49,716 nt of DNA from Oscillospiraceae bacterium (GTDB lineage: Bacteria; Bacillota; Clostridia; Oscillospirales; Oscillospiraceae). The DNA is taken from positions 1 through 49,716 of the forward strand of contig WRJA01000005.1 of assembly GCA_009782435.1 (NCBI GenBank), given 5' to 3'. This document shows, piece by piece, positions 1-14,732 of this stretch. Every line of letters starts with the position of its first letter. The first letter of the stretch is position 1. Below the pieces are notes generated by a model. It had not been told where the DNA came from, ran no database searches, and saw only the letters and a program-made list of their open reading frames with translations. The position numbers and the translations under genes are program-made.

Positions 1-1933
1 GTCCTCTTTGGACGGCGCCCTGGAGGATTTTGTCCGGAAATATCCCCGTGTCACAAAGCCCTTCCAGGAGGCGATTCGTCGGGAATGCGAACAGGCGGCC
101 AAGGCAAAAGCCAATGGTTTTACTCTTGCCCGCGTAAAAAGACTCACCAAGAACCTTTTTGGCCTAAGCGACGAGGCTGTGCGGATATGCGAATACGCGT
201 TTATTGTCGGAAATTTCGGCAAAGTGGAAAGGTATTTTGAGGATAGCCTTGAAATTCATTCGTACGCGTCAAGACACCTGATGATGAAGATCCTAGATAT
301 CCCGGTCTCGCGCTATAGCGCGTCCATCAAGGAACTGACGGACAGCGGCATTATTGAAGCCGGGTCTTGCATGTTCCGTCTACAGGACGAACTGGCGGCA
401 CTCTGGCAGGATGAAAAGGGCGCAAACGTCGAGAAGCTGTTTTGCCGTCCTCTTGCAGGGGAAACGCTGCCTCTGGCGAACTTCAGGCTCCCTGCCGGCG
501 ATATTGCCCGCGTCACATCGCTGCTGGAAACGGACAGCAAGCTGCCGGTGCATATTCTGCTGTACGGCGTGCCGGGAACAGGCAAAACCACCTTTGTCCG
601 CAGTCTTGCCGCCGCTTGCAAGGTCAAGGGCTGGGCGGTTCCCTGCCGTGACGATGATGACGAAAATGATCGCCGCGTTTCCTTGCGCGCCTGTCTGCAC
701 ATGGCCTCCCGGCATAAGGGCTCGTTTGTGCTGGTTGATGAAGCTGAGCGCATGCTGAACACGGATATGTTCCTATATCAAAATACCCAGCAAAAAGCGT
801 GGCTCACCGGCTTGCTGGAGGAACCGGAGCGACGGATCATCTGGATTGTCAACGATATTGACTTTGTCGATCAGGCCGTGCGCCGCCGTTTCACGTACAG
901 CATCCATTTCGAGGAACTCGGCAAACGGGAGCGGCGTTCGGTGTGGCAGCAGATTCTCGCGCGGCATCGTGTGCGCATGTCCGAAGCGGAGATTGAAAAG
1001 CTGTGCGAAGCGTACAAATCACAGGCAGCGGTGATTGAGGCCGCTGTCGTGCGGAGCAAGGAGATCGGCGTCAAGAAAACGGAGTTTGCCGCCAGCGTGG
1101 AAGGCTTTTTACGCGCCCACAATACCTTGCGCCGCAACGGCAGCAAGGAGCGCGTCAAGAAAGCGGAAGTCGGGCCGGACTACAGCCCGGAAGGCGTGTG
1201 CATGGAAGGTTCGGTGGAAGAACTGCTGCAAGCCAGCCGCGAGGCTGATGCCGAACTGCGGGAAAAGAACATCCTTCCGCCGGCAAGCGGCAATATGCTT
1301 TTCTACGGCCCTCCGGGCACGGGCAAAACCGCCCTTGCCCGCTACATCGCCAGGGAATTGGACAGGGAATGCGTGGTCAAACGGGCAAGCGATCTGCTCA
1401 GCAAGTGGGTGGGGGAGTCGGAAAAACAGGTGGCGGACGCTTTTGCCCGCGCGGAACATGACGGGGCCGTGCTGGTAATCGACGAGGCCGACAGCTTCAT
1501 TTATTCCCGCGACAGGGCGCAGCGTTCCTGGGAGAGCACCCTGGTGAACGAATTTTTGACCGCGCTTGAGGAATGCCGGGGCTTTTGCATTTGCACCACC
1601 AACAGGCGCGACACGATGGACGCCGCCGCCATGCGCCGTTTCAGCGTCAAAGTCGCGTTCACCTATGCGCGGCCGGAACAGATCGCGGCGCTCTATGACA
1701 AGCTGCTGGCCCCGCTGTGCACGACAGCCATGCCGCCCGACTTGCGGCGGGAATTGCTGGCCCTGCCGCGCCTGGCGCCGGGAGATTTTCATGTTGTGCG
1801 CGCGAGTTGCGCGGGCAGGTTCGGCAGATCCGCGACAGCTCTTTCGCATGAGCGGCTCGTTGCCGCCCTGCGAAAGGAGCAGTCGCTCAAGCTGCGTGAA
1901 GAGGAAGGGGGGCGGATGGGATTTTGTGGATAG
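1..1933 (+). CDS. Tandem AAA+ ATPase, 5' end cut by window
   Basis: Two AAA+ modules sit in one chain, so it is probably a hexameric ATP-driven remodelling machine. Module 1 has a Walker A GVPGTGKTT near residue 188 (counting from the TTG at 8), a Walker B LVDEAE and an RRRF arginine-finger segment. Module 2 has YGPPGTGKTA near residue 434, LVIDEADSF and MRRF. The N-terminal ~150 residues are helical and look winged-helix-like. The reading frame is open to base 1 with no ribosome binding site before the TTG at 8, so the true start lies upstream. Codon use is strongly G/C-ending (gcc, cgc, ctg), unlike the genes from 2.9 kb onward, which suggests horizontal transfer. It lies upstream of a broken serine recombinase. 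The substrate is unknown. A defence or mobile-element role is possible but not shown. Confidence 0.85.
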   Translation, partial: SSLDGALEDFVRKYPRVTKPFQEAIRRECEQAAKAKANGFTLARVKRLTKNLFGLSDEAVRICEYAFIVGNFGKVERYFEDSLEIHSYASRHLMMKILDIPVSRYSASIKELTDSGIIEAGSCMFRLQDELAALWQDEKGANVEKLFCRPLAGETLPLANFRLPAGDIARVTSLLETDSKLPVHILLYGVPGTGKTTFVRSLAAACKVKGWAVPCRDDDDENDRRVSLRACLHMASRHKGSFVLVDEAERMLNTDMFLYQNTQQKAWLTGLLEEPERRIIWIVNDIDFVDQAVRRRFTYSIHFEELGKRERRSVWQQILARHRVRMSEAEIEKLCEAYKSQAAVIEAAVVRSKEIGVKKTEFAASVEGFLRAHNTLRRNGSKERVKKAEVGPDYSPEGVCMEGSVEELLQASREADAELREKNILPPASGNMLFYGPPGTGKTALARYIARELDRECVVKRASDLLSKWVGESEKQVADAFARAEHDGAVLVIDEADSFIYSRDRAQRSWESTLVNEFLTALEECRGFCICTTNRRDTMDAAAMRRFSVKVAFTYARPEQIAALYDKLLAPLCTTAMPPDLRRELLALPRLAPGDFHVVRASCAGRFGRSATALSHERLVAALRKEQSLKLREEEGGRMGFCG

Positions 1934-2057
1934 GTTTACTCTGCTGCTCAAAGCTTTTGAAAATTTTCTCTCGTAAAAAGTTCGTCAAAGATTACGGAAT
2001 CTGAAACGGCGCTCTTCCATACTACTCTTTGAGTAAGCGAAAGTAAGGAGTATGGTC
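1934..2057. other. Intergenic gap between the AAA+ gene and the recombinase remnant
   Basis: About 120 bases with no gene, terminator or promoter that I can support, apart from the AAGGAG at its right end that serves the recombinase fragment. The missing N-terminal two-thirds of the recombinase would have lain here, so the gap probably marks a deletion or insertion junction. Confidence 0.5.
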
Positions 2058-2648
2058 ATGAGCAGGCAAAGAAAAGATACATTCTTTGAGCCCCACGCTG
2101 ATGCGGGAATTACCGAGCGCTTGATCGCCGCCATTGAAGCCGGGGTCGTGACTGAAACAACAAAGTCGCGGCTGGTAGAACTGGAAGCCGAACGCGCAAA
2201 CATAGAAAAGGGCATCACAAAGGAAAAGATCGCCACGCCGCACCTCGACCGGGATCAGGTTGTTTTCTTTTTGGAACGGTTCAGGGACGCGGATATGGGG
2301 GAGGATAAACACCGGGAACGGCTTGTAAAAACATTCCTGAACTCGGTCTTTTTATACGACGACCCGGACGACCCGAAAAAGGGAAAACTCGTCCTGTGTA
2401 TGAACTACACCGACGAGTACGGTCAATTAGGTAAGATCACGCTTCCGATAATGGAAAACGCTGTATTTCACGGGGGCGGTGGCTGTTCAAGTTTTGCGCC
2501 GTCGTCCGCACCAAAAGGAAGCCCTGTAGTTTCAATAGCTACAGGGTCATTTTTTATGCTTGTTTCAGAGCCGATATCCTTTTGTTTGCCCATAACAGAT
2601 TTATTGGTATTGACTTTAACACTTGCAGGTCGCATTGCTAAACGATGA
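2058..2648 (+). pseudogene. Large serine recombinase, C-terminal remnant
   Basis: The protein matches only the C-terminal part of Clostridial large serine recombinases: the coiled-coil segment around ELEAERANIEKGI, then a stretch like the family's ending (RLVKTFLNSVFLYDD, then CSSFAPSSAPKGS). The catalytic resolvase domain with its serine, and the zinc-ribbon part, are absent. About 120 bases separate it from the AAA+ gene, and no recombinase sequence is visible there. The ATG at 2058 has a good AAGGAG seven bases upstream. An ATG at 2052 is in frame but too close to that site. A fragment could still be translated, but it cannot recombine DNA. A terminator-like hairpin lies inside its 3' part. 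Confidence 0.7.
2522..2555 (+). terminator. Hairpin plus T-run in the recombinase 3' end
   Basis: CCCTGTAG at 2522-2529 pairs with CTACAGGG at 2539-2546 around a 9-base loop and is followed by TCATTTTTT. It resembles a Rho-independent terminator for the recombinase transcript. The formally open frame runs on through it, so the last ~35 residues of that frame may not be native protein. Confidence 0.55.
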
Positions 2649-2770: not shown

Positions 2771-2845
2771 GGCGCCATAGCCAAGCGGTAAGGCAGCGGA
2801 CTGCAAATCCGCGATCCCCCGGTTCAAATCCGGGTGGCGCCTCCA
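2771..2845 (+). tRNA. tRNA-Cys (anticodon GCA)
   Basis: The acceptor stem GGCGCCA (2771-2777) pairs with TGGCGCC (2835-2841). The anticodon stem GCGGA/TCCGC encloses loop CTGCAAA with anticodon GCA at 2803-2805. The T arm carries GGTTCAAATCC. The discriminator base is T2842, as expected for cysteine tRNA, and the CCA end is encoded (2843-2845). It lies directly after the recombinase remnant, so it could have served as an attachment site. Confidence 0.97.
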
Positions 2846-4165: not shown

Positions 4166-5836
4166 TCATCGCGCCGCGGTATTGTAGCTGTCTTTCAGCG
4201 CGACCGAACGATTGAACACCAAGCGGCCCGCGCGGGAATCTTTGCTGTCCGGAGAGAAATACCCGAGTCTTAAGAATTGGAAAGCCATGGGGGAGCTCGC
4301 CGTTTCAAGCTTTTTTTCCATTTTGCAGCCGGTCAATGTCTTAAGGGAATCGGGGTTTATAAATTTTGTAAAATCTTTGTCGGCGCCGTCGGGATCGGGG
4401 TCGAGGAACAGATTTGAATACAGCCGCACTTCGGCGTTTACGCAGTTTCCGGCGTCCACCCAATGTATGGTGCCGCGAATCTTCCGGCCGTCCGGAGTGT
4501 TGCCGCCGCTTGTTTCCGGATCATACTGAGCCGTTACGGCCGTGATGTTGCCCTCGCCGTCTTTCAGACAGCCGGTGCATTTTACGATGTACGCGCTTTT
4601 CAGGCGTACCTCATTGCCCGGATACAGCCGGTTGTATTTTTTTTCCGGCGTCTCGGTAAAATCGTCGGCTTCGATCCAAAGTTCACGGGAAAACGTGACA
4701 AAACGCTCTCCGGCCGACTCGTTTTCCGGATTGTTCTCGATTTTGAATTCTTCGGTTTTTGTTTCCGGATAATTTGTGACTATCAGTTTAAGGGGCTTTA
4801 AAACCGCCATAACGCGTTCGGCGTTTTCGTTGAGGTCTTCTCTGAGGCAATGCTCGAGAAAAGAGTATTCAACGGTGCTTGCCGCTTTTGAAACGCCGAT
4901 TCGTTCGCAAAAATTACGCAATGAGACAGGAGTGAATCCGCGCCTTCGCAGTCCGCTTAGAGTCGGCATACGGGGATCGTCCCAACCGGAAACATATCCC
5001 TCGTCGACCAATTTTCGCAGCTTGCGCTTGGACATTACGGTATATGTCATATCCAGCCGGGCAAATTCTGTCTGCCGCGGTTTTGCAGGCAATGTGCAGT
5101 TGTTTATCACCCAGTCATAGAGCGGTCTGTGATCTTCAAACTCAAGAGAACACAAGGAGTGTGTTATGCATTCCGCGGCGTCCTCGATAGGATGGGCAAA
5201 GTCGTACATCGGATATATGCGCCGGTTGCCGCCTGTGCGGTGATGAGGCGTGCTGTTGATACGGTACAAGACCGGGTCGCGCAGGTTGAAATTGCCGGAT
5301 GAAAGATCGATCTTTGCGCGCAGTGTCATAGCGCCGTCGGGAAATCCTCCGTTTTTCATACGCTCGAAGAGAGCCGAATTCTCCTCCGTCGGCCTGTCTC
5401 TGTAAGGGCTTATCGCCGGTGTGTTTACGTCGCCGCGATACTCGCGCATTTGTTCGGGCGACAGTTCGCACACATACGCGAGGCCCTTTTTGATCAGTTC
5501 CGTCGCGCACTCATACATCAGATCGAAATAGTCTGACGCGTAATAGAATCTGTCTCCCCAATCGAACCCCAGCCATTGAATGTCCTCTTTTATCGCGTCG
5601 ACATACTCGACATCCTCTTTAGCCGGGTTAGTGTCGTCCATCCTGAGGTTGCATAAACCGCCGTATTTTTTTGCCGAGCCGAAATCGATGCAAAGGGCCT
5701 TGCAGTGGCCAATGTGCAGATAGCCGTTGGGTTCGGGCGGAAAACGGGTGTGTACGGTTTTTCCCTCGAAACGCCCTCCGGGGCCTGTGTCTTCTTCAAT
5801 AATATCGTGAATAAAGTTTCCGGTCTGCTCGTCCAT
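4166..5836 (-). CDS. glnS: Glutaminyl-tRNA synthetase
   Basis: Charges tRNA-Gln with glutamine in the cytoplasm. It is a class I synthetase of 556 residues, close to the family's usual length. The HIGH motif is in GYLHIGH (residues 38-44), with PPEPNG just before it, and the second signature appears as VMSKRKL, the form usual in GlnRS. The C-terminal half carries the two beta-barrel anticodon-binding domains. The ATG at 5836 gives the normal N-terminus (MDEQTGNF). Reading farther upstream would add 37 atypical residues overlapping the promoter. AAGGA lies 12 bases upstream of this ATG, a rather long spacing. Direct GlnRS implies that Gln-tRNA need not be made by amidation. GlnRS is patchy among Firmicutes. 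Confidence 0.97.
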   Translation of the reverse strand: MDEQTGNFIHDIIEEDTGPGGRFEGKTVHTRFPPEPNGYLHIGHCKALCIDFGSAKKYGGLCNLRMDDTNPAKEDVEYVDAIKEDIQWLGFDWGDRFYYASDYFDLMYECATELIKKGLAYVCELSPEQMREYRGDVNTPAISPYRDRPTEENSALFERMKNGGFPDGAMTLRAKIDLSSGNFNLRDPVLYRINSTPHHRTGGNRRIYPMYDFAHPIEDAAECITHSLCSLEFEDHRPLYDWVINNCTLPAKPRQTEFARLDMTYTVMSKRKLRKLVDEGYVSGWDDPRMPTLSGLRRRGFTPVSLRNFCERIGVSKAASTVEYSFLEHCLREDLNENAERVMAVLKPLKLIVTNYPETKTEEFKIENNPENESAGERFVTFSRELWIEADDFTETPEKKYNRLYPGNEVRLKSAYIVKCTGCLKDGEGNITAVTAQYDPETSGGNTPDGRKIRGTIHWVDAGNCVNAEVRLYSNLFLDPDPDGADKDFTKFINPDSLKTLTGCKMEKKLETASSPMAFQFLRLGYFSPDSKDSRAGRLVFNRSVALKDSYNTAAR

Positions 5837-5890: not shown

Positions 5891-5919
5891 ATTATACATC
5901 AGTTTTTTTGTATTTACAA
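5891..5919 (-). promoter_or_regulatory. glnS promoter
   Basis: On the minus strand, TTGTAA (5919-5914) and a perfect TATAAT (5896-5891) are 17 bases apart. Transcription would begin about 50 bases before the glnS ATG. Its -35 box overlaps that of the divergent plus-strand promoter. Confidence 0.65.
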
Positions 5920-5941
5920 TAACAGGGCCGTAATATATAAT
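5913..5941 (+). promoter_or_regulatory. Promoter of the trxB-trxA-valS operon
   Basis: TTTACA (5913-5918) and a perfect TATAAT (5936-5941) are 17 bases apart. The expected start of transcription is near 5948, which leaves a short leader before the reductase gene. The -35 box shares five bases with that of the glnS promoter on the other strand, so the two polymerases probably cannot bind at once. Confidence 0.7.
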
Positions 5942-5995
5942 GACCAATAATGTAAAAAAGTTCAGTGTATCAAAGCGGAAAGGCGGGGGTCACAT

Positions 5996-6841
5996 ATACC
6001 GGACATAATAGTAGCAGGCGGCGGCCCGGCGGGGATTTCCGCAGCTCTGACCGCGAGAAACAGAGGCAAATCGGTTGACATAATAAGCACAAACCCGGAA
6101 GAATCGCCGCTGTGCAAAGCGAGCTCGATCGACGATTATCCCGGTTTTCACAGCGTGACCGGAAAGGATTTACTGCGAAAAATGACCGATCACGCGCAAG
6201 CCTCGGGAGTGAAATTTACAACCGGCCGTGTGCTGAGCATATCGCCGATGGACGAAGGCTTATGGGTTTCCGCCGGGGGAGGCATCTTTGAATGCAAAGC
6301 GGTGGTTTTAGCTTTGGGCGTGAGTCTTACCGGCGTTTTTCCCGGAGAACGCGAATTTCTCGGCAATGGAGTCAGCTACTGCGCCACCTGCGACGGTATG
6401 CTGTTCAGAAAAAAGCGCGTCGCTGTTTTGGCTATGTGCAAAGAAGCCGAACATGAGGCGGAGTTTTTAAAAAGCATCGGCTGCGAGGTCATGTATTTTA
6501 ACGAGCCGAAAACTTGCGAGATACGCGGAGAAACAACAGTCAGGGAAATATCCGTCGACAAGACGGTATATCCCGCGGACGGAGTTTTTATTTTCAGAAA
6601 CAATGTCGCGCCCGACATACTGATACCCGGAATTTCGCAGAGCGACGGGCATATCGCGGTCGACGAAAACATGAGTACGGATATTCCCGGCGTTTATGCC
6701 GCCGGTGATTGCGCGGGCAAGCCGTACCGGATAGCCAAAGCCGTGGGGCAGGGCAGTATCGCGGGTTTGTCGGCTGCCGAATTTATTGAAAAAGGGAGGG
6801 ACAGAAGTGCCGATAATACATTTGACAACCGAAAACTTTGA
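5996..6841 (+). CDS. trxB: Thioredoxin reductase-like flavoprotein without NADPH motifs
   Basis: A FAD-dependent disulfide reductase that probably reduces the thioredoxin encoded next to it. From 5996 it has FAD motif GGGPAG (residues 8-13), redox pair CATC (129-132) and C-terminal FAD motif GVYAAGDC (232-239). The NADPH motif GxGxxA is replaced by LAMCKEAEHEA (~145-155), and the HRRxxxR motif is also missing. The length of ~281 is below the usual 310. This pattern matches the ferredoxin-dependent flavin thioredoxin reductases known from Clostridium, so ferredoxin may be the electron donor. No ATG, GTG or TTG lies in frame between the stop at 5948 and the FAD motif. I propose ATA at 5996, behind GGCGGGGG. 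The first in-frame ATG (6155) would remove the FAD motif. Its end overlaps trxA by 35 bases. Confidence 0.85.
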   Translation: MPDIIVAGGGPAGISAALTARNRGKSVDIISTNPEESPLCKASSIDDYPGFHSVTGKDLLRKMTDHAQASGVKFTTGRVLSISPMDEGLWVSAGGGIFECKAVVLALGVSLTGVFPGEREFLGNGVSYCATCDGMLFRKKRVAVLAMCKEAEHEAEFLKSIGCEVMYFNEPKTCEIRGETTVREISVDKTVYPADGVFIFRNNVAPDILIPGISQSDGHIAVDENMSTDIPGVYAAGDCAGKPYRIAKAVGQGSIAGLSAAEFIEKGRDRSADNTFDNRKL

Positions 6842-7109
6842 AGAAACCGTTTCCGAGGGAAAATGTCTTATTGATTTTTGGGCCGATTGGTGCGGGCCGT
6901 GTAAAATGCTTGCCCCGGTCATTGAAAAAATCAGTGAAAAATACGAAGGTTCCGTTAAGGTATGCAAGGTGAATGTCGATGAAGAGGGAGAACTTGCGAC
7001 ACGCTTTAAGATCATGAGCATACCGACGGTCATGGCGTTTTCGGACGGCAAGGAAACCGGAAAAACCGTGGGGGTAAAACCGCAGGCGGAGTTGGAAAAA
7101 CTGTTATGA
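6807..7109 (+). CDS. trxA: Thioredoxin
   Basis: A small cytoplasmic dithiol protein of 100 residues with the canonical WCGPC active site (residues 28-32) and the cis-proline in SIPTVMAF. It passes electrons to targets such as ribonucleotide reductase and peroxiredoxins. The GTG at 6807 has AGGGAGG seven bases upstream. The in-frame ATG at 6786 adds MKKGGTE and has no such site. The gene overlaps the reductase gene by 35 bases and valS by four (ATGA), so the three are probably translationally coupled. The reductase is most likely its direct partner. Confidence 0.96.
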
Positions 7110-9727
7110 GAGAACTGCCGACGAGGTATGAACCTGAAAAAAGCGAGAAGAGAATCTATGATATGTGGATGGAAAAGGGATGCTTTCGCGCCGCGCGGGA
7201 CCCTTCAAAAAAGCCGTTCACCATCGTCATACCGCCTCCGAACGTAACGGGACAGCTGCACTTGGGCCATGCGTTCGACGAGACCATACAAGACGTCCTT
7301 ATCAGATACAAACGTATGCAGGGTTACAGCGCGCTTTGGCTGCCCGGGACAGATCACGCGGGCATTTCCACGCAGATAAAAGTTGAGGAGAATCTGAGGG
7401 TCGAGAATCTTACGCGCTTTGACCTCGGGAGAGAAAAATTCACAGAGCGTGTTTGGGACTGGAAAAACAAATACGGCGATCGCATAGTCGAACAGCTCAA
7501 AGCGTTGGGATGCTCGTGCGACTGGGACAGAGAGCGCTTTACCATGGACGAGACCTGCGGAAAGGCTGTGCGCGAGGTTTTTGTCAGCCTTTATGAAAAG
7601 GGCCTGATTTACAAAGGCAATCGCATAATCAATCGCTGTCCGGAATGCGCGACCGCGCTCTCGGACACCGAAGTCGAACACTCGGAACAGCCCGGGCATT
7701 TGTGGTATATTCGTTATCCGGTAAAGGATTCTCAAGAGTTCATTACGATAGCCACGACAAGGCCGGAGACGATGCTGGGCGACACGGGAGTGGCGGTGAA
7801 CCCGAATGACATGCGCTACTCTCACATTGTGGGAAAATCAGCGATACTGCCGCTTATAGGCCGCGAATTACCGATAGTGGCTGACGAATATGCCGACCCG
7901 GAATTCGGCAGCGGCTGCGTTAAAATAACGCCCTGTCACGACCCGAACGATTTTGAGGTGGGCTTGCGCAATGATCTTGAGCAAGTTCTTATCATGGACG
8001 AAAAGGCCCGCATAATTAACAGCGGAAAATATGACGGGATGGACAGATATGAAGCGCGCGAGGCTGTTGTTCGCGATTTGGAGGAGTCGGGATATCTCGT
8101 TTCGGTCAAAGAACACAGCCACAGCGTCGGCAGCTGTTATCGCTGCGGCACGGTGGTGGAACCGGTATCGTCAGAACAGTGGTTTGTTAAGATGCAGCCC
8201 CTCTCGCGCGAAGCCGCGAGGGTAGTTGAGGACGGCACGATCAGATTTGTGCCGGATCGGTTTTCGAAAATATACCTGAATTGGATGGAAAATTGCCGAG
8301 ACTGGTGTATTTCCAGGCAGCTTTGGTGGGGACACAGGATACCTGCGTGGTATTGCGAAGACTGCGGTCATGTGACCGTATCGCGCGAAGACGCGGCCTT
8401 TTGTCAAAAATGCAAAAGCGGGAAAATAAGGCAGGACCCGGACGTCCTCGACACTTGGTTTTCTTCCGCGCTTTGGCCTTTTTCAACTCTCGGGTGGCCG
8501 GATAAAACGGCGGACCTCGAGTATTTTTATCCCACGGATGTGCTGGTGACCGGTTACGATATAATTTTCTTTTGGGTTGCCCGCATGATTTTTTCCGGAA
8601 TGGAGCACATGAAAAAGGAACCTTTTAAAACAGTGCTTATCCACGGTCTCATTCGCGACCCCCAAGGTAAAAAAATGTCCAAATCCGCGGGTAACGGGAT
8701 AGACCCCATGGAAATGATCGACCGTTTCGGAGCGGATGCTTTGAGATTCAATATCATAACCGGAAACAGCCCCGGCAATGACATGAGATTCTACGCGGAG
8801 CGCTGCGAAGCCATGCGCAATTTTGCCAACAAGCTCTGGAACGCCGCGCGTTTTGTTTTGCTGAACTTGACGATCGAAAAAAATGAACTGCCGCTCAAAC
8901 CGGAAACCGAAGACAAATGGATACTCTCAAAGCTCAATACTCTTATAAAAGACATAACGGAAAATTTGGACAAATATGAATTGGGCATTGCCGCCGATAA
9001 GATAAATAATTTCATTTGGGACAGCTACTGCGATTGGTACATTGAATTGACAAAGCCGCGGCTGAACGGCGAGGACCAGGAGGCGAAACTATCGGCGCAA
9101 AAAGTCCTGCTCTATGTGCTTACCGAAACGCTTAAGCTTTTGCACCCGTTTATGCCGTTTATAACGGAGGAGATATACTCGGCGCTTCCGAATGGGGGAG
9201 AGGCGCTGATGACGGAAGAATTTCCGCAATATACCGATAAATACGATTTCCCGGAAGACGAGGCGGATTTCGAGACGATAATGTCCGCCGTAAAAGCTCT
9301 GCGCAGCCGGCGGGCCGAAATGAACATACCGCCTTCAAAAAAACCGAGGCTCATAATCGTCACGGACAGAAAAAAAGTCTTTGCCGACGGCGCTTCCTAT
9401 CTCACGAAGCTCGCGTACGCGGGAAGCGTTGAAATTGCGGACGAAACTCCGGATGACACATCGCAAACGGTCTCGGTGGCTACCGAAGGAGCGGTTATGT
9501 ATATGCCCTTGGCCGAGCTTGTAGATTTTAAAAAAGAGAGGGAGCGCATTGAAAAAGAGCTCGCCAAAGCGCGGCATGATCTGGCCGGCCAACGGATGAA
9601 GCTCTCAAACGATGAATTTATAAAAAAAGCGCCGGAGCGTGTTATTAACGCCGAGCGTGAAAAAGAAGCAAAATTGACGGCGCTGACAGAAAACCTTGAA
9701 GCGAGCCTTAACGGCCTTGCGGACTGA
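7106..9727 (+). CDS. valS: Valyl-tRNA synthetase
   Basis: Charges tRNA-Val and has 873 residues, typical of bacterial ValRS. The nucleotide-binding HIGH variant LHLGH is at 51-55 behind PPPNVTGQ, and KMSKS is at 523-527. Between them lies the editing (CP1) domain with [17 protein letters not shown]. Several Cys-x2-Cys pairs (CPEC, CEDC, CQKC) could bind zinc. The C-terminal ~65 residues form the charged coiled-coil arm that contacts tRNA ([17 protein letters not shown]). It begins with ATGA overlapping the thioredoxin stop. Pairing with a thioredoxin operon is unusual, but there is no sign of special regulation and no T-box upstream. Confidence 0.98.
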
Positions 9728-11137: not shown

Positions 11138-14100
11138 TTACATAAACGCTTGCCAGAACCGGTTAAGAATAACAGCGAGTTCTGCTCTTGTAATGTTCCC
11201 GGAGGGTACAAACGTTTCCGGCGTGCGGCCGTTGAGGACACCGGCTCTGTAGAGGTCGTAAACCGCTCCGCGCGCCAAAGAATCGATATTCCATTCGTCT
11301 GCGAAAACGGGGGCGTTGCGGACAAAGTTATATCGCATGTTCTGTATTGAAATGAAACGGGCCAAGAGCAAAGCGATATCCTGACGCGAAATGGCGCCGG
11401 TCAGATTATATTGGCTTCCTATCGGCAAAATGCTTTTGGAGAGCACCCATGCGTATGACGCTTCTCTGCCCTGAAGGGGATAACCGTACATCGAGATCAT
11501 GCTCGGGGAACCGGCCATCATATACAAGGCGTCTATGACTTCTCCCTGTGTCGCGGGGTCGCTCGGCCTGAAAGACATGGAGTCAAAACTCGAGGAACCC
11601 ATCCATCCGCGGCTGCTGACGAAACTCACGCTTGAGTAGTACCAGTCTGTTGAGTATACGTCACTGTATGAGGTGGCTAACGGCCGGGAGCTGACTATAG
11701 TGAACACCGCCGAAATCGACCTGTTGTCGCCGAAATTCACGACCATCGTGTGAGTGCCCTGACCCAAGGTGTCAAGGTATCCGTTTTGGAAAGTTATCTG
11801 CGTATGACTGTTGACCGCAGAGGAGAAATAGTGCTGGTTGCGAACGAGTATCCTGCCGTCCAAGGTGATGCTTCCGGCTCTGTTGAAGAGCTGATAGTCC
11901 CTCATGACGACTATGGAAAAAGGCGCTCCGGTACCGGTGGTGTAGGCGCTGCCGGCTGAGAAGTAGTATTCGGTGTTCGGCAGAACGACCTCGGGTCTTA
12001 CGGCGTATCCGCCGCTGCCGCCGACGTAGTAGTATCCTCCGCCGTTGTATTGGTAATTTCCGGTGTAGGGGTCGTAGTAGTAATCGTTGTAATAAGGATC
12101 GGAATTGTATCCTGAGTTCGGGTAGTAATTCGATCCTCCGCCGGTGTTTCCGGCTGAGAGCCCTGTATATGTGAAATAGGCGTAAACGGTCGTTTTATTT
12201 GAGGGCATGGTGAATTCGGTGAGTATGGCCTGCGTGTCTTCAAAAGAACCTCCGTTTGTCGAGGACCAGCCGGCGAACTGATAGCCGGGTATCGGCGAGG
12301 CGGAGACCGTAATTTTCTCGTTGTTTGAGTAGTCGGCTGAGTTTGAACCGCCGGCCGGCGCGATTATGACCGTTCCGCGCGCCGAACCCGTGCTGCGGGC
12401 GCTGCCGCCGGGGGTCGCGTGCAGCGTGAAGGAAAAGGGTTCGTATTCCCTGACAAAGACGATAAATTCCCGGGTCAGGTCTTCGAGCATATCGGAGTTG
12501 AGCAGACCGTTCTTTACGGTCGCCTTTAAGATCACGACTCCCGGCCTTTGGGCGATCATTTTACCGGATACAGGGTCGATATAGGCGCCGGTGTCGCCGG
12601 GATCCAGTTCCCACTCGATGTCTTTATAGGTAGCGCCGGTGGGGTTTACGGTGGCTTTCAGCTCAAACGGCTCTCCGACGAAAGCAAATCCCGGAAGCCC
12701 CGTGATGCCTGTGGCGGGAGCATAGTTTCCGACGGTTATCGTGAAAGTCTTTTTATAGCCCAAATCAGAGGAATAACCCCAGTCCTCTGAGTCGGTTACG
12801 CCTTTTATCACTTCCGCCTCAAGCACCACCGTTCCGGTTTTTCCCCATTCGACGGATAAAACGCTGTCGGGAAGGATACCGTCGGAAGCGGCGCTCAATA
12901 CTTCGACGGTCGATTTGTCAAAGTCGACGCGCCATTCGATCGGAGACTTGTTTGTGGCGTTAGTGGGGCTCACGGTGACGAAATCGTTGAGTTTGACCGT
13001 CGCGCCCATGGCTATCGTCATAACGGAAGAGGCGAGAGTGAGGTTAGATACCGGAACGAAAGTGGGAACAGCCGTTACGGTAACGGTACAGGTCGCCCTG
13101 AGCTTGCCGTCGAAAGTCCTGACCGTGATCGTCGTTGTGCCGGCGGCCACGGGGATGATTTTGCATTTGTACGCAATTTCGTTGGTTTGACTGTTATATT
13201 CTGTGTACGGATATGTATACGCGACTTTGGTGTTGCTGCTCTCCCATACGAGAGTTTGATCGGTGGCGTTATTCGGGTATAAAACAGCCGTTAATTCAAC
13301 CTGTTCGTCTAAGGGTACATCGTTCGGGTCCTCAGGCATCGGGATAGTCAGCCGGGTCTCGTCCAGGCGCAGATTGCTGACGGGAATGATCTTTTCGGTG
13401 ACTATCACAAGGCTGCTTGCCGTCGCCGTATTGCCGCCGCTTTCCGCGACCGCGTGTACGGTCGTCTCGCCGACCTCAAGCCCGTGTACGACTCCTGTAA
13501 CGCCGTTTGCGGTCTCGGTGCTTGATATCCGCGCCACGGCGCCGTTATCGACATACCACTTTACGGATTGTTTTACCGTTGTCGGATTAACGACGGCGCG
13601 AATCTCCGCCGTAGCTCCTTTCTCGATGTAAACGACGTTTTTATCCAAGGTGACGTAAAAATTGCTGACGATCGCCGGATAAGTCTGCGATGAGCCGGGA
13701 CTCCAATTCGGAGATGTCCATCCCGTGCCGCCGGGATAGTAGGTTATGGTGAAATCAGAATGAGCGCCCTTGAACACGTCGTTACCGAACGAGCGGGGAG
13801 CGTTTCCTTGAAAAACGGCGGTTTTCAGAGAAGAACACCCGGAAAACGCGCGGTCGCCTATCGTCGTAACAGAGGACGGCAAGGTCACGCTTTCCAAACC
13901 GGCGCAGATCATGAACGCTTCGGCGTTTACGGTTGTGACGGTGGGTTCGATCTCATAAACACCGCTGAGAGTTGCCGAAGCCTTGATGATTCGGAGCGGA
14001 GTGCCGTTTGCGTTGTTGTTGTTCTTTTCGATCAGAACGCCTCGGGGATCGATATAAAATCTGCCGGTGAAGTCCGGCCCGCTGCTTCCGCCTCTTATGA

Positions 14101-14671
14101 AACTCAGTGTGTTGCAGCCGATGAACGCATTGGTCCCGAGCGTTGTGATGTTATTTACGTTCGATAGATTCAAGCGTTCAAGTTTGGCGCATTTTTCAAA
14201 TGCGTAATTTCCGATCACGGTCAGATTCGCCGGAATGAGAGTTAAACCGTTGTGGTCGTTGATGTCCGTAAGGTCAGCGCATCCGGAAAAGGCGTAGTTT
14301 CCGAAGCGCGTTATATTTTTTTGAGTCGTATCAACAGTGACTTTCTTAAGATTTCCGAAATCCGCGAATGCGTAGTTGCCGATAACCGCGATGTTATCCA
14401 GCTTTATTTCTTCGACCATAGCGCGGTTTGCCTGCCACGGCGCGCCGTAGCGGGAATAGTCGTTGATCGTGTTGACTGTGCCTTTGCCGGTTATCGTGAG
14501 GACTTTTGTATTGTCATTTATTATCCATTCCAAATAGTTGCCTGTTGAGACAGTACCGACAGTGCCTTTTATTTCCGCGGCGCTTGCCGAAGGCGGAAAA
14601 GCCGCAAAAAGCGAGATCGCGAGCGCAAAGGTCAAAATAAGGCTCACCGAACGGTTTTTTTTGTACTTCAT
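11138..14671 (-). CDS. SLH-anchored surface protein with LRR, Ig-like, InlB-like and X2 modules
   Basis: A secreted cell-wall protein of 1,177 residues. The order is: signal peptide ending ASA (~1-32); BspA-type leucine-rich repeats (~80-290, repeated NYAF/AFxGC units); about four bacterial Ig-like (Big_2) domains (~330-745); an InlB B-like repeat (PGYQFAGWSS...NKTTVYAYF, ~770-840); a Tyr/Gly/Asn-rich segment (~845-890); an X2-like carbohydrate-binding module (~895-990); and three SLH repeats at the C-terminus (~995-1177). SLH repeats usually bind pyruvylated wall polymers. The ATG at 14671 has GGAGG eight bases upstream; a farther start at 14713 would overlap the -10 box. Probably an adhesin or envelope component; the ligand is unknown. 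Confidence 0.9.
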   Translation of the reverse strand: MKYKKNRSVSLILTFALAISLFAAFPPSASAAEIKGTVGTVSTGNYLEWIINDNTKVLTITGKGTVNTINDYSRYGAPWQANRAMVEEIKLDNIAVIGNYAFADFGNLKKVTVDTTQKNITRFGNYAFSGCADLTDINDHNGLTLIPANLTVIGNYAFEKCAKLERLNLSNVNNITTLGTNAFIGCNTLSFIRGGSSGPDFTGRFYIDPRGVLIEKNNNNANGTPLRIIKASATLSGVYEIEPTVTTVNAEAFMICAGLESVTLPSSVTTIGDRAFSGCSSLKTAVFQGNAPRSFGNDVFKGAHSDFTITYYPGGTGWTSPNWSPGSSQTYPAIVSNFYVTLDKNVVYIEKGATAEIRAVVNPTTVKQSVKWYVDNGAVARISSTETANGVTGVVHGLEVGETTVHAVAESGGNTATASSLVIVTEKIIPVSNLRLDETRLTIPMPEDPNDVPLDEQVELTAVLYPNNATDQTLVWESSNTKVAYTYPYTEYNSQTNEIAYKCKIIPVAAGTTTITVRTFDGKLRATCTVTVTAVPTFVPVSNLTLASSVMTIAMGATVKLNDFVTVSPTNATNKSPIEWRVDFDKSTVEVLSAASDGILPDSVLSVEWGKTGTVVLEAEVIKGVTDSEDWGYSSDLGYKKTFTITVGNYAPATGITGLPGFAFVGEPFELKATVNPTGATYKDIEWELDPGDTGAYIDPVSGKMIAQRPGVVILKATVKNGLLNSDMLEDLTREFIVFVREYEPFSFTLHATPGGSARSTGSARGTVIIAPAGGSNSADYSNNEKITVSASPIPGYQFAGWSSTNGGSFEDTQAILTEFTMPSNKTTVYAYFTYTGLSAGNTGGGSNYYPNSGYNSDPYYNDYYYDPYTGNYQYNGGGYYYVGGSGGYAVRPEVVLPNTEYYFSAGSAYTTGTGAPFSIVVMRDYQLFNRAGSITLDGRILVRNQHYFSSAVNSHTQITFQNGYLDTLGQGTHTMVVNFGDNRSISAVFTIVSSRPLATSYSDVYSTDWYYSSVSFVSSRGWMGSSSFDSMSFRPSDPATQGEVIDALYMMAGSPSMISMYGYPLQGREASYAWVLSKSILPIGSQYNLTGAISRQDIALLLARFISIQNMRYNFVRNAPVFADEWNIDSLARGAVYDLYRAGVLNGRTPETFVPSGNITRAELAVILNRFWQAFM
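12003..12141 (-). repeat. Tyrosine-rich low-complexity segment
   Basis: Within the SLH surface protein, about 46 residues contain 15 tyrosines among Gly, Asn, Ser and Pro, in clusters such as YY and YYY. It joins the InlB-like repeat to the X2-like module and looks like a flexible linker. Dense tyrosine could also allow cross-linking or aromatic contacts, but that is inference. Confidence 0.8.
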
Positions 14672-14703
14672 CTGTGTTGCCTCCTCCGCATATATACGTC
14701 GGA

Positions 14704-14732
14704 ACAATATCACAAATCCTGTTTTCTGTCAA
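14704..14732 (-). promoter_or_regulatory. Promoter of the 1,177-aa surface protein gene
   Basis: On the minus strand, a perfect TTGACA (14732-14727) and TATTGT (14709-14704) are 17 bases apart. The leader to the ATG at 14671 is about 25 bases and carries the GGAGG ribosome site. Confidence 0.7.

Follow-up and report, generated by a model that had tools for sequence, protein, structure and literature searches.

Ferredoxin-dependent flavin thioredoxin reductases (FFTRs) are an enzyme kind already known from Clostridium pasteurianum, C. acetobutylicum (PDB 6GNA-6GND), Gloeobacter and C. difficile, in which TrxB1 and TrxB4 were assigned to the FFTR kind in 2024 (PMC10880999). The Gloeobacter violaceus enzyme was first named DTR (PMC9025218). 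Because this name has been changed to FFTR (PMC9025218), DTR was dropped as a separate rival for the locus described here; the original prediction, made from the DNA sequence, had mistakenly set it apart from the ferredoxin type. The Trx-binding motifs of the cyanobacterial FFTR are GR/KG and FF (PMC9025218). The potentials given for the Gloeobacter enzyme are -448 mV for FAD, -424 mV for ferredoxin and -356 mV for the disulfide (PMC12796991), values that suit ferredoxin as a donor and not NADPH. Most Clostridia are said to carry FFTR-like plus NADPH-dependent enzymes (PMC10880999), and FFTRs have so far been viewed mainly as an additional reductase beside the latter in these bacteria.

The gene described here lies in a window of 49,716 nucleotides (contig WRJA01000005.1) from an Oscillospiraceae bacterium. 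The host is a gut-type anaerobe and Oscillospiraceae relative.

Reductase gene and neighbours

The reductase frame is open from 5951 (following an in-frame stop at 5948) to a TGA at 6839-6841. Its product has the CxxC pair and both FAD motifs of an FFTR (Table 1) and, again like an FFTR, lacks the NADPH motifs GxGxxA/G and HRRxxxR that mark NADPH thioredoxin reductases of the TIGR01292 type. At the Trx-binding positions it has GNG and LF, while the C. acetobutylicum enzymes (CaFFTR1 and CaFFTR2) have GKG or GRG and LY, so the FF motif is not retained among clostridial FFTRs.

The original prediction had placed the gene at the same coordinates, where the first codon proves to be ATA. It had also described an intact CATC pair, two intact FAD motifs, replacement of GxGxxA and absence of HRRxxxR, all of which are confirmed by the sequence and the alignment. 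The same motif loss, which it had attributed to Clostridium FFTRs, is common to every FFTR-clade protein compared and is thus not the chance decay of a single gene. The proposed coupling to trxA and valS is real, consisting of overlaps of 35 and 4 nt.

Table 1. Features of the reductase locus and of other parts of the window
Feature	Position	Strand	Basis or remark
Protein with two AAA ATPase domains	8-1933		PF00004, two stretches; left edge of window
198-aa ORF	2052-2648		no Pfam match; by eye, first part resembles a serine recombinase C-terminal region
tRNA-Cys	2771-2845		
glnS	4166-5836	-	divergent neighbour; also adjoins FFTR in nine relatives
Promoter-like TTTACA-17-TATAAT	5913-5941	+	11/12 consensus matches; upstream of operon
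Ribosome-binding-like AAGGCGGGGG	5980-5989	+	6 nt before ATA; read from sequence
FFTR-type thioredoxin reductase gene	5996-6841	+	281 aa, start codon ATA; PDB sequence match, tree, alignment, fold
First FAD motif GGGPAG (GxGxxG)	6017-6034	+	alignment
Redox pair CATC	6380-6391	+	read from sequence; invariant among aligned relatives
LAMCKEAEHEA in place of NADPH motif GxGxxA	6428-6460	+	alignment
Deletion junction FNEPKTCE	6497-6520	+	HRRxxxR segment and its remnant in other FFTRs gone; segment-length comparison
Second FAD motif YAAGDC	6695-6712	+	alignment
trxA, thioredoxin (WCGPC)	6807-7109	+	GTG start; PF00085, 107.7 bits; overlaps reductase gene
valS	7106-9727	+	ATG at 7106 overlaps trxA stop (ATGA); 65-78% identical homologue near FFTR in seven relatives
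1191-aa surface-type protein	11138-14713	-	BspA leucine-rich repeats, Big_2, InlB-type repeat, SLH domain

The promoter-like site is a consensus match only, and six such sites occur in the region where 1.5 are expected. The organization glnS-FFTR-trxA-valS is partly conserved among relatives. The FFTR gene is paired with trxA in L040, L041, L113 and most long-form loci of the family, and valS lies near it in these three loci and in L043, L046, L052 and L053. The FFTR gene has no detected trxA beside it in L043, L045, L050, L052 and L116-L118; of these loci, L043 and L052 have valS nearby instead. Elsewhere in the window, the recombinase-like ORF close to tRNA-Cys may be the remnant of an integrated element.

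Assignment to the FFTR family

In a phmmer search of the PDB, the protein is most similar to the C. acetobutylicum FFTRs 6gnc and 6gna (187 bits, full length), whereas the best NADPH enzyme matches in two pieces with the NADPH segment omitted (137 bits). Against TIGR01292 (NADPH thioredoxin reductase) the whole protein scores 176.8 bits, below the curated cut-off of 343.45. A maximum-likelihood tree of 71 proteins unites it with CaFFTR1 and CaFFTR2 in one clade (support 100/100), separate both from the NADPH enzymes and from a non-NADPH clade containing the Desulfovibrio vulgaris TRi; in a second tree, with the deletion columns omitted, it again falls with the clostridial FFTRs (100/99). The trees were built without 5j60 and DDOR sequences, and the comparison with the Gloeobacter FFTR is one of fold. 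An AlphaFold2 model (monomer without FAD or ferredoxin; mean pLDDT 87.4, pTM 0.78) is closest to 6gnc and 6gna (TM 0.87, rmsd 2.2 A) and has the open domain arrangement of an FFTR. It is followed by the Gloeobacter FFTR 5j60/6xtf (TM 0.79), TRi 5nii (TM 0.68) and the NADPH enzymes (TM 0.5-0.6, rmsd 11-15 A), whose high rmsd presumably reflects a different domain orientation. The phylogeny and structure prediction that had been suggested as checks of the original prediction thus both place the protein with the FFTRs and apart from the NADPH enzymes. From these comparisons, the protein is very probably an FFTR, with ferredoxin as its presumed donor by analogy with its relatives; the GNG at the GR/KG position is a point against this reading.

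The enzyme could alternatively be a disulfide reductase that takes electrons from another donor (flavodoxin, rubredoxin, F420 or a glutathione-like thiol) or passes them to a partner other than TrxA. The GNG at the GR/KG position and the seven relatives in which trxA was not detected beside the gene would fit this proposal, as would the fact that the electron donor is not encoded beside the reductase. It is nevertheless improbable, given that the nearest characterised relatives are ferredoxin-dependent, that trxA overlaps the gene itself and that ferredoxin proteins are abundant in the genome.

ATA start codon

The ATA with which the reductase gene begins is aligned with the starts of its FFTR relatives, all 31 of which have an in-frame ATG, GTG or TTG near this position (displaced upstream by a few codons in L120 and L122). 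L113, a near relative, has an ATG behind the same kind of leader (cgggggtatcac) as the ATA. Together, the alignment and the leader identify the ATA as the homologous start position. No in-frame ATG, GTG or TTG occurs between the stop at 5948 and the FAD motif, and a standard ORF caller therefore picks the GTG at 6155, which removes the FAD site. This leaves two readings of the ATA: a start codon of a rare type, or a consensus error or strain variant in what is the sequence of one genome of the species. As a start codon, it could lead to poor expression of the reductase.

Trimmed NADPH domain

The segment from CATC to the GVFxxR strand is 73 residues long in the window protein, against 87-90 in the solved and other long FFTRs and 102-106 in NADPH enzymes (all by alignment), such that about 14 residues are missing even relative to the solved FFTRs. 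In a model of the long-form protein L047, a loop and short strand (170-184) are kept between strands 164-169 and 188-192; in the window model, strand 164-169 leads directly to strand 174-178. Thirteen aligned FFTRs, including the window protein, have a segment of 72-75 residues. On the tree, this short state has to be explained by three changes, and grouping all short forms in one clade is disfavoured (AU p = 0.017, deletion columns omitted), although the short group was defined with the first tree already in view and support for several of the deep FFTR forks is weak. A single origin was rejected on these grounds, and the sequences provide moderate evidence for three or more origins of the short form within the family.

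Match lengths in 138 family FFTRs fall into two groups, 780-810 nt (71 matches) and 828-855 nt (66), with one further match partial or cut by a contig end, suggesting that about half are of the short form. A link between trimming and loss of the NADPH enzyme was considered and rejected: short FFTRs occur alone in 26 genomes and with an NADPH enzyme in 45, and long FFTRs in 24 and 42, respectively. The open literature searched contains no description of the recurrent second deletion or of frequent NADPH-enzyme absence in this family, though the founding FFTR structure paper may mention them.

The repeated trimming of a dead NADPH domain can be read as a sequence-level sign that pyridine nucleotides go unused, and the short forms would offer natural minimal versions for studying the swing of the CxxC domain. 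The trimmed form might even constitute a distinct FFTR subclass, with a minimal disulfide-carrier domain that emerged on several occasions in anaerobes where ferredoxin often drives the entire thioredoxin pool, and with swing mechanics or a ferredoxin/thioredoxin interface changed from those of the solved FFTRs, but this is a speculative and rather unlikely extension of the data.

Thioredoxin reductases in the genome and family

The genome from which the window comes yielded no canonical NADPH thioredoxin reductase; its best TIGR01292 match is the window gene itself, whose 131 bits fall short of the cut-off of 343, and none of its other genes approaches that value. The completeness of this genome is 91% and its contamination 5.8%, so an NADPH enzyme may have been missed in this single case. 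The other flavoproteins examined, named by inspecting their sequences by eye without a database search, are a glutamate-synthase/NfnB-like protein, a YgfK-like protein, a rubredoxin-reductase-like protein and a glycerol-3-phosphate-type pair, none of which is a reductase of the FFTR or NADPH kind. The one ordinary thioredoxin in the genome is the product of the neighbouring trxA; there is, besides, a lipoprotein-like WCGPC protein on contig C15. The genome also encodes a PFOR (1724 bits) and several ferredoxin-like frames of 74-104 aa (contigs C6, C7, C10 and C22). On this gene content, the FFTR seems to be the sole thioredoxin reductase.

In a survey of 37 family genomes, with up to 46 candidates scored in each, eight have only an FFTR and seven have both types. 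Across a larger set, an FFTR is present in 138 of 251 family genomes (at least 90% complete), and approximately 51 of the 138 (37%) have no NADPH enzyme at E < 1e-70; this figure is approximate because eight candidates were scored per genome and absence was inferred for about 24 genomes without a listing. In such genomes, thiol redox state would directly track the reduced-ferredoxin pool of fermentation. For the window's host, the tie between thiol redox and fermentative electron flow put forward in the original prediction is plausible, as PFOR and ferredoxins are present.

The loss of both NADPH motifs, the shortened segment and the ATA in place of ATG could also mark a degenerate NADPH thioredoxin reductase that is becoming a pseudogene. 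A decaying enzyme would, however, not be expected to cluster with solved, working FFTRs instead of with NADPH enzymes, or to share its trimmed form with about 70 of the 138 family genomes, where some of the proteins are 40-51% identical and have intact frames. The window protein itself has kept its FAD and catalytic motifs, the genome yielded no reductase to replace it, and the relic is accordingly a very improbable reading. The earlier view that the gene encodes a functional reductase instead of a relic gains support from the lack of a canonical NADPH reductase in the genome, the single ordinary thioredoxin adjoining, the intact catalytic motifs and the conserved synteny.

An NADPH-independent oxidoreductase of the D. 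vulgaris TRi or DDOR type would likewise be without NADPH motifs, and the same taxonomic order contains TRi-like genes (L057-L066), but the likelihood of this is negligible, as TRi-like proteins form a separate clade, the window protein does not group with 5NII and has a TM of 0.68 to it against 0.87 to FFTR, and no DDOR chains are among the best 60 PDB sequence matches. The TRi-like proteins of the order (L057-L059, L061, L065, L066, L069 and L123) are a second non-NADPH clade, closest to 5NII, and in two genomes (G017 and G024) such a protein is apparently the sole thioredoxin reductase.

Proposed mechanism

The proposed model for the window protein, drawn by analogy with the Gloeobacter FFTR, is as follows. 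Ferredoxin, reduced by PFOR in fermentation, would pass two electrons, one at a time, to FAD. The small CxxC domain would swing to the flavin, where its disulfide is reduced, and then swing out to hand the electrons to the co-encoded TrxA. With no NADPH reductase found in the genome, the thioredoxin pool of the cell would depend on ferredoxin alone. As no NADPH would be bound there, the vestigial domain would be free to shrink, and in the window protein this shrinkage would have removed the loop and strand left from the HRRxxxR segment.

Comparison with known systems

The closest described systems are CaFFTR1 and CaFFTR2 (6GNA/6GNB, 6GNC and 6GND), which share with the window protein its clade, fold, CATC pair and lack of NADPH motifs and, as judged from the model, its open arrangement. 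Their ferredoxin-to-thioredoxin function, known from PDB titles and the literature, would by analogy be shared as well. The window protein is about 33-36% identical to them (fold alignment), has approximately 14 fewer residues in the vestigial NADPH domain and, unlike them, starts with ATA and ends in an unstructured tail where its gene overlaps trxA. C. difficile TrxB1 and TrxB4, likened here by their description (PMC10880999), are also clostridial, without GxGxxA and HRRxxxR and encoded in an operon with a thioredoxin gene, but C. difficile has two NADPH enzymes in addition (PMC10880999), whereas none was found in the window's genome. The D. vulgaris TRi (5NII) is atypical and, like the window protein, has no NADPH motifs, but belongs to a separate clade and is less similar in fold (TM 0.68). 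The G. violaceus FFTR (5J60, 6XTF) is longer and has a C-terminal Trp stacked on the flavin, which the window protein lacks; it is NADPH-independent, driven by ferredoxin and, according to the literature, the sole thioredoxin reductase of its host.
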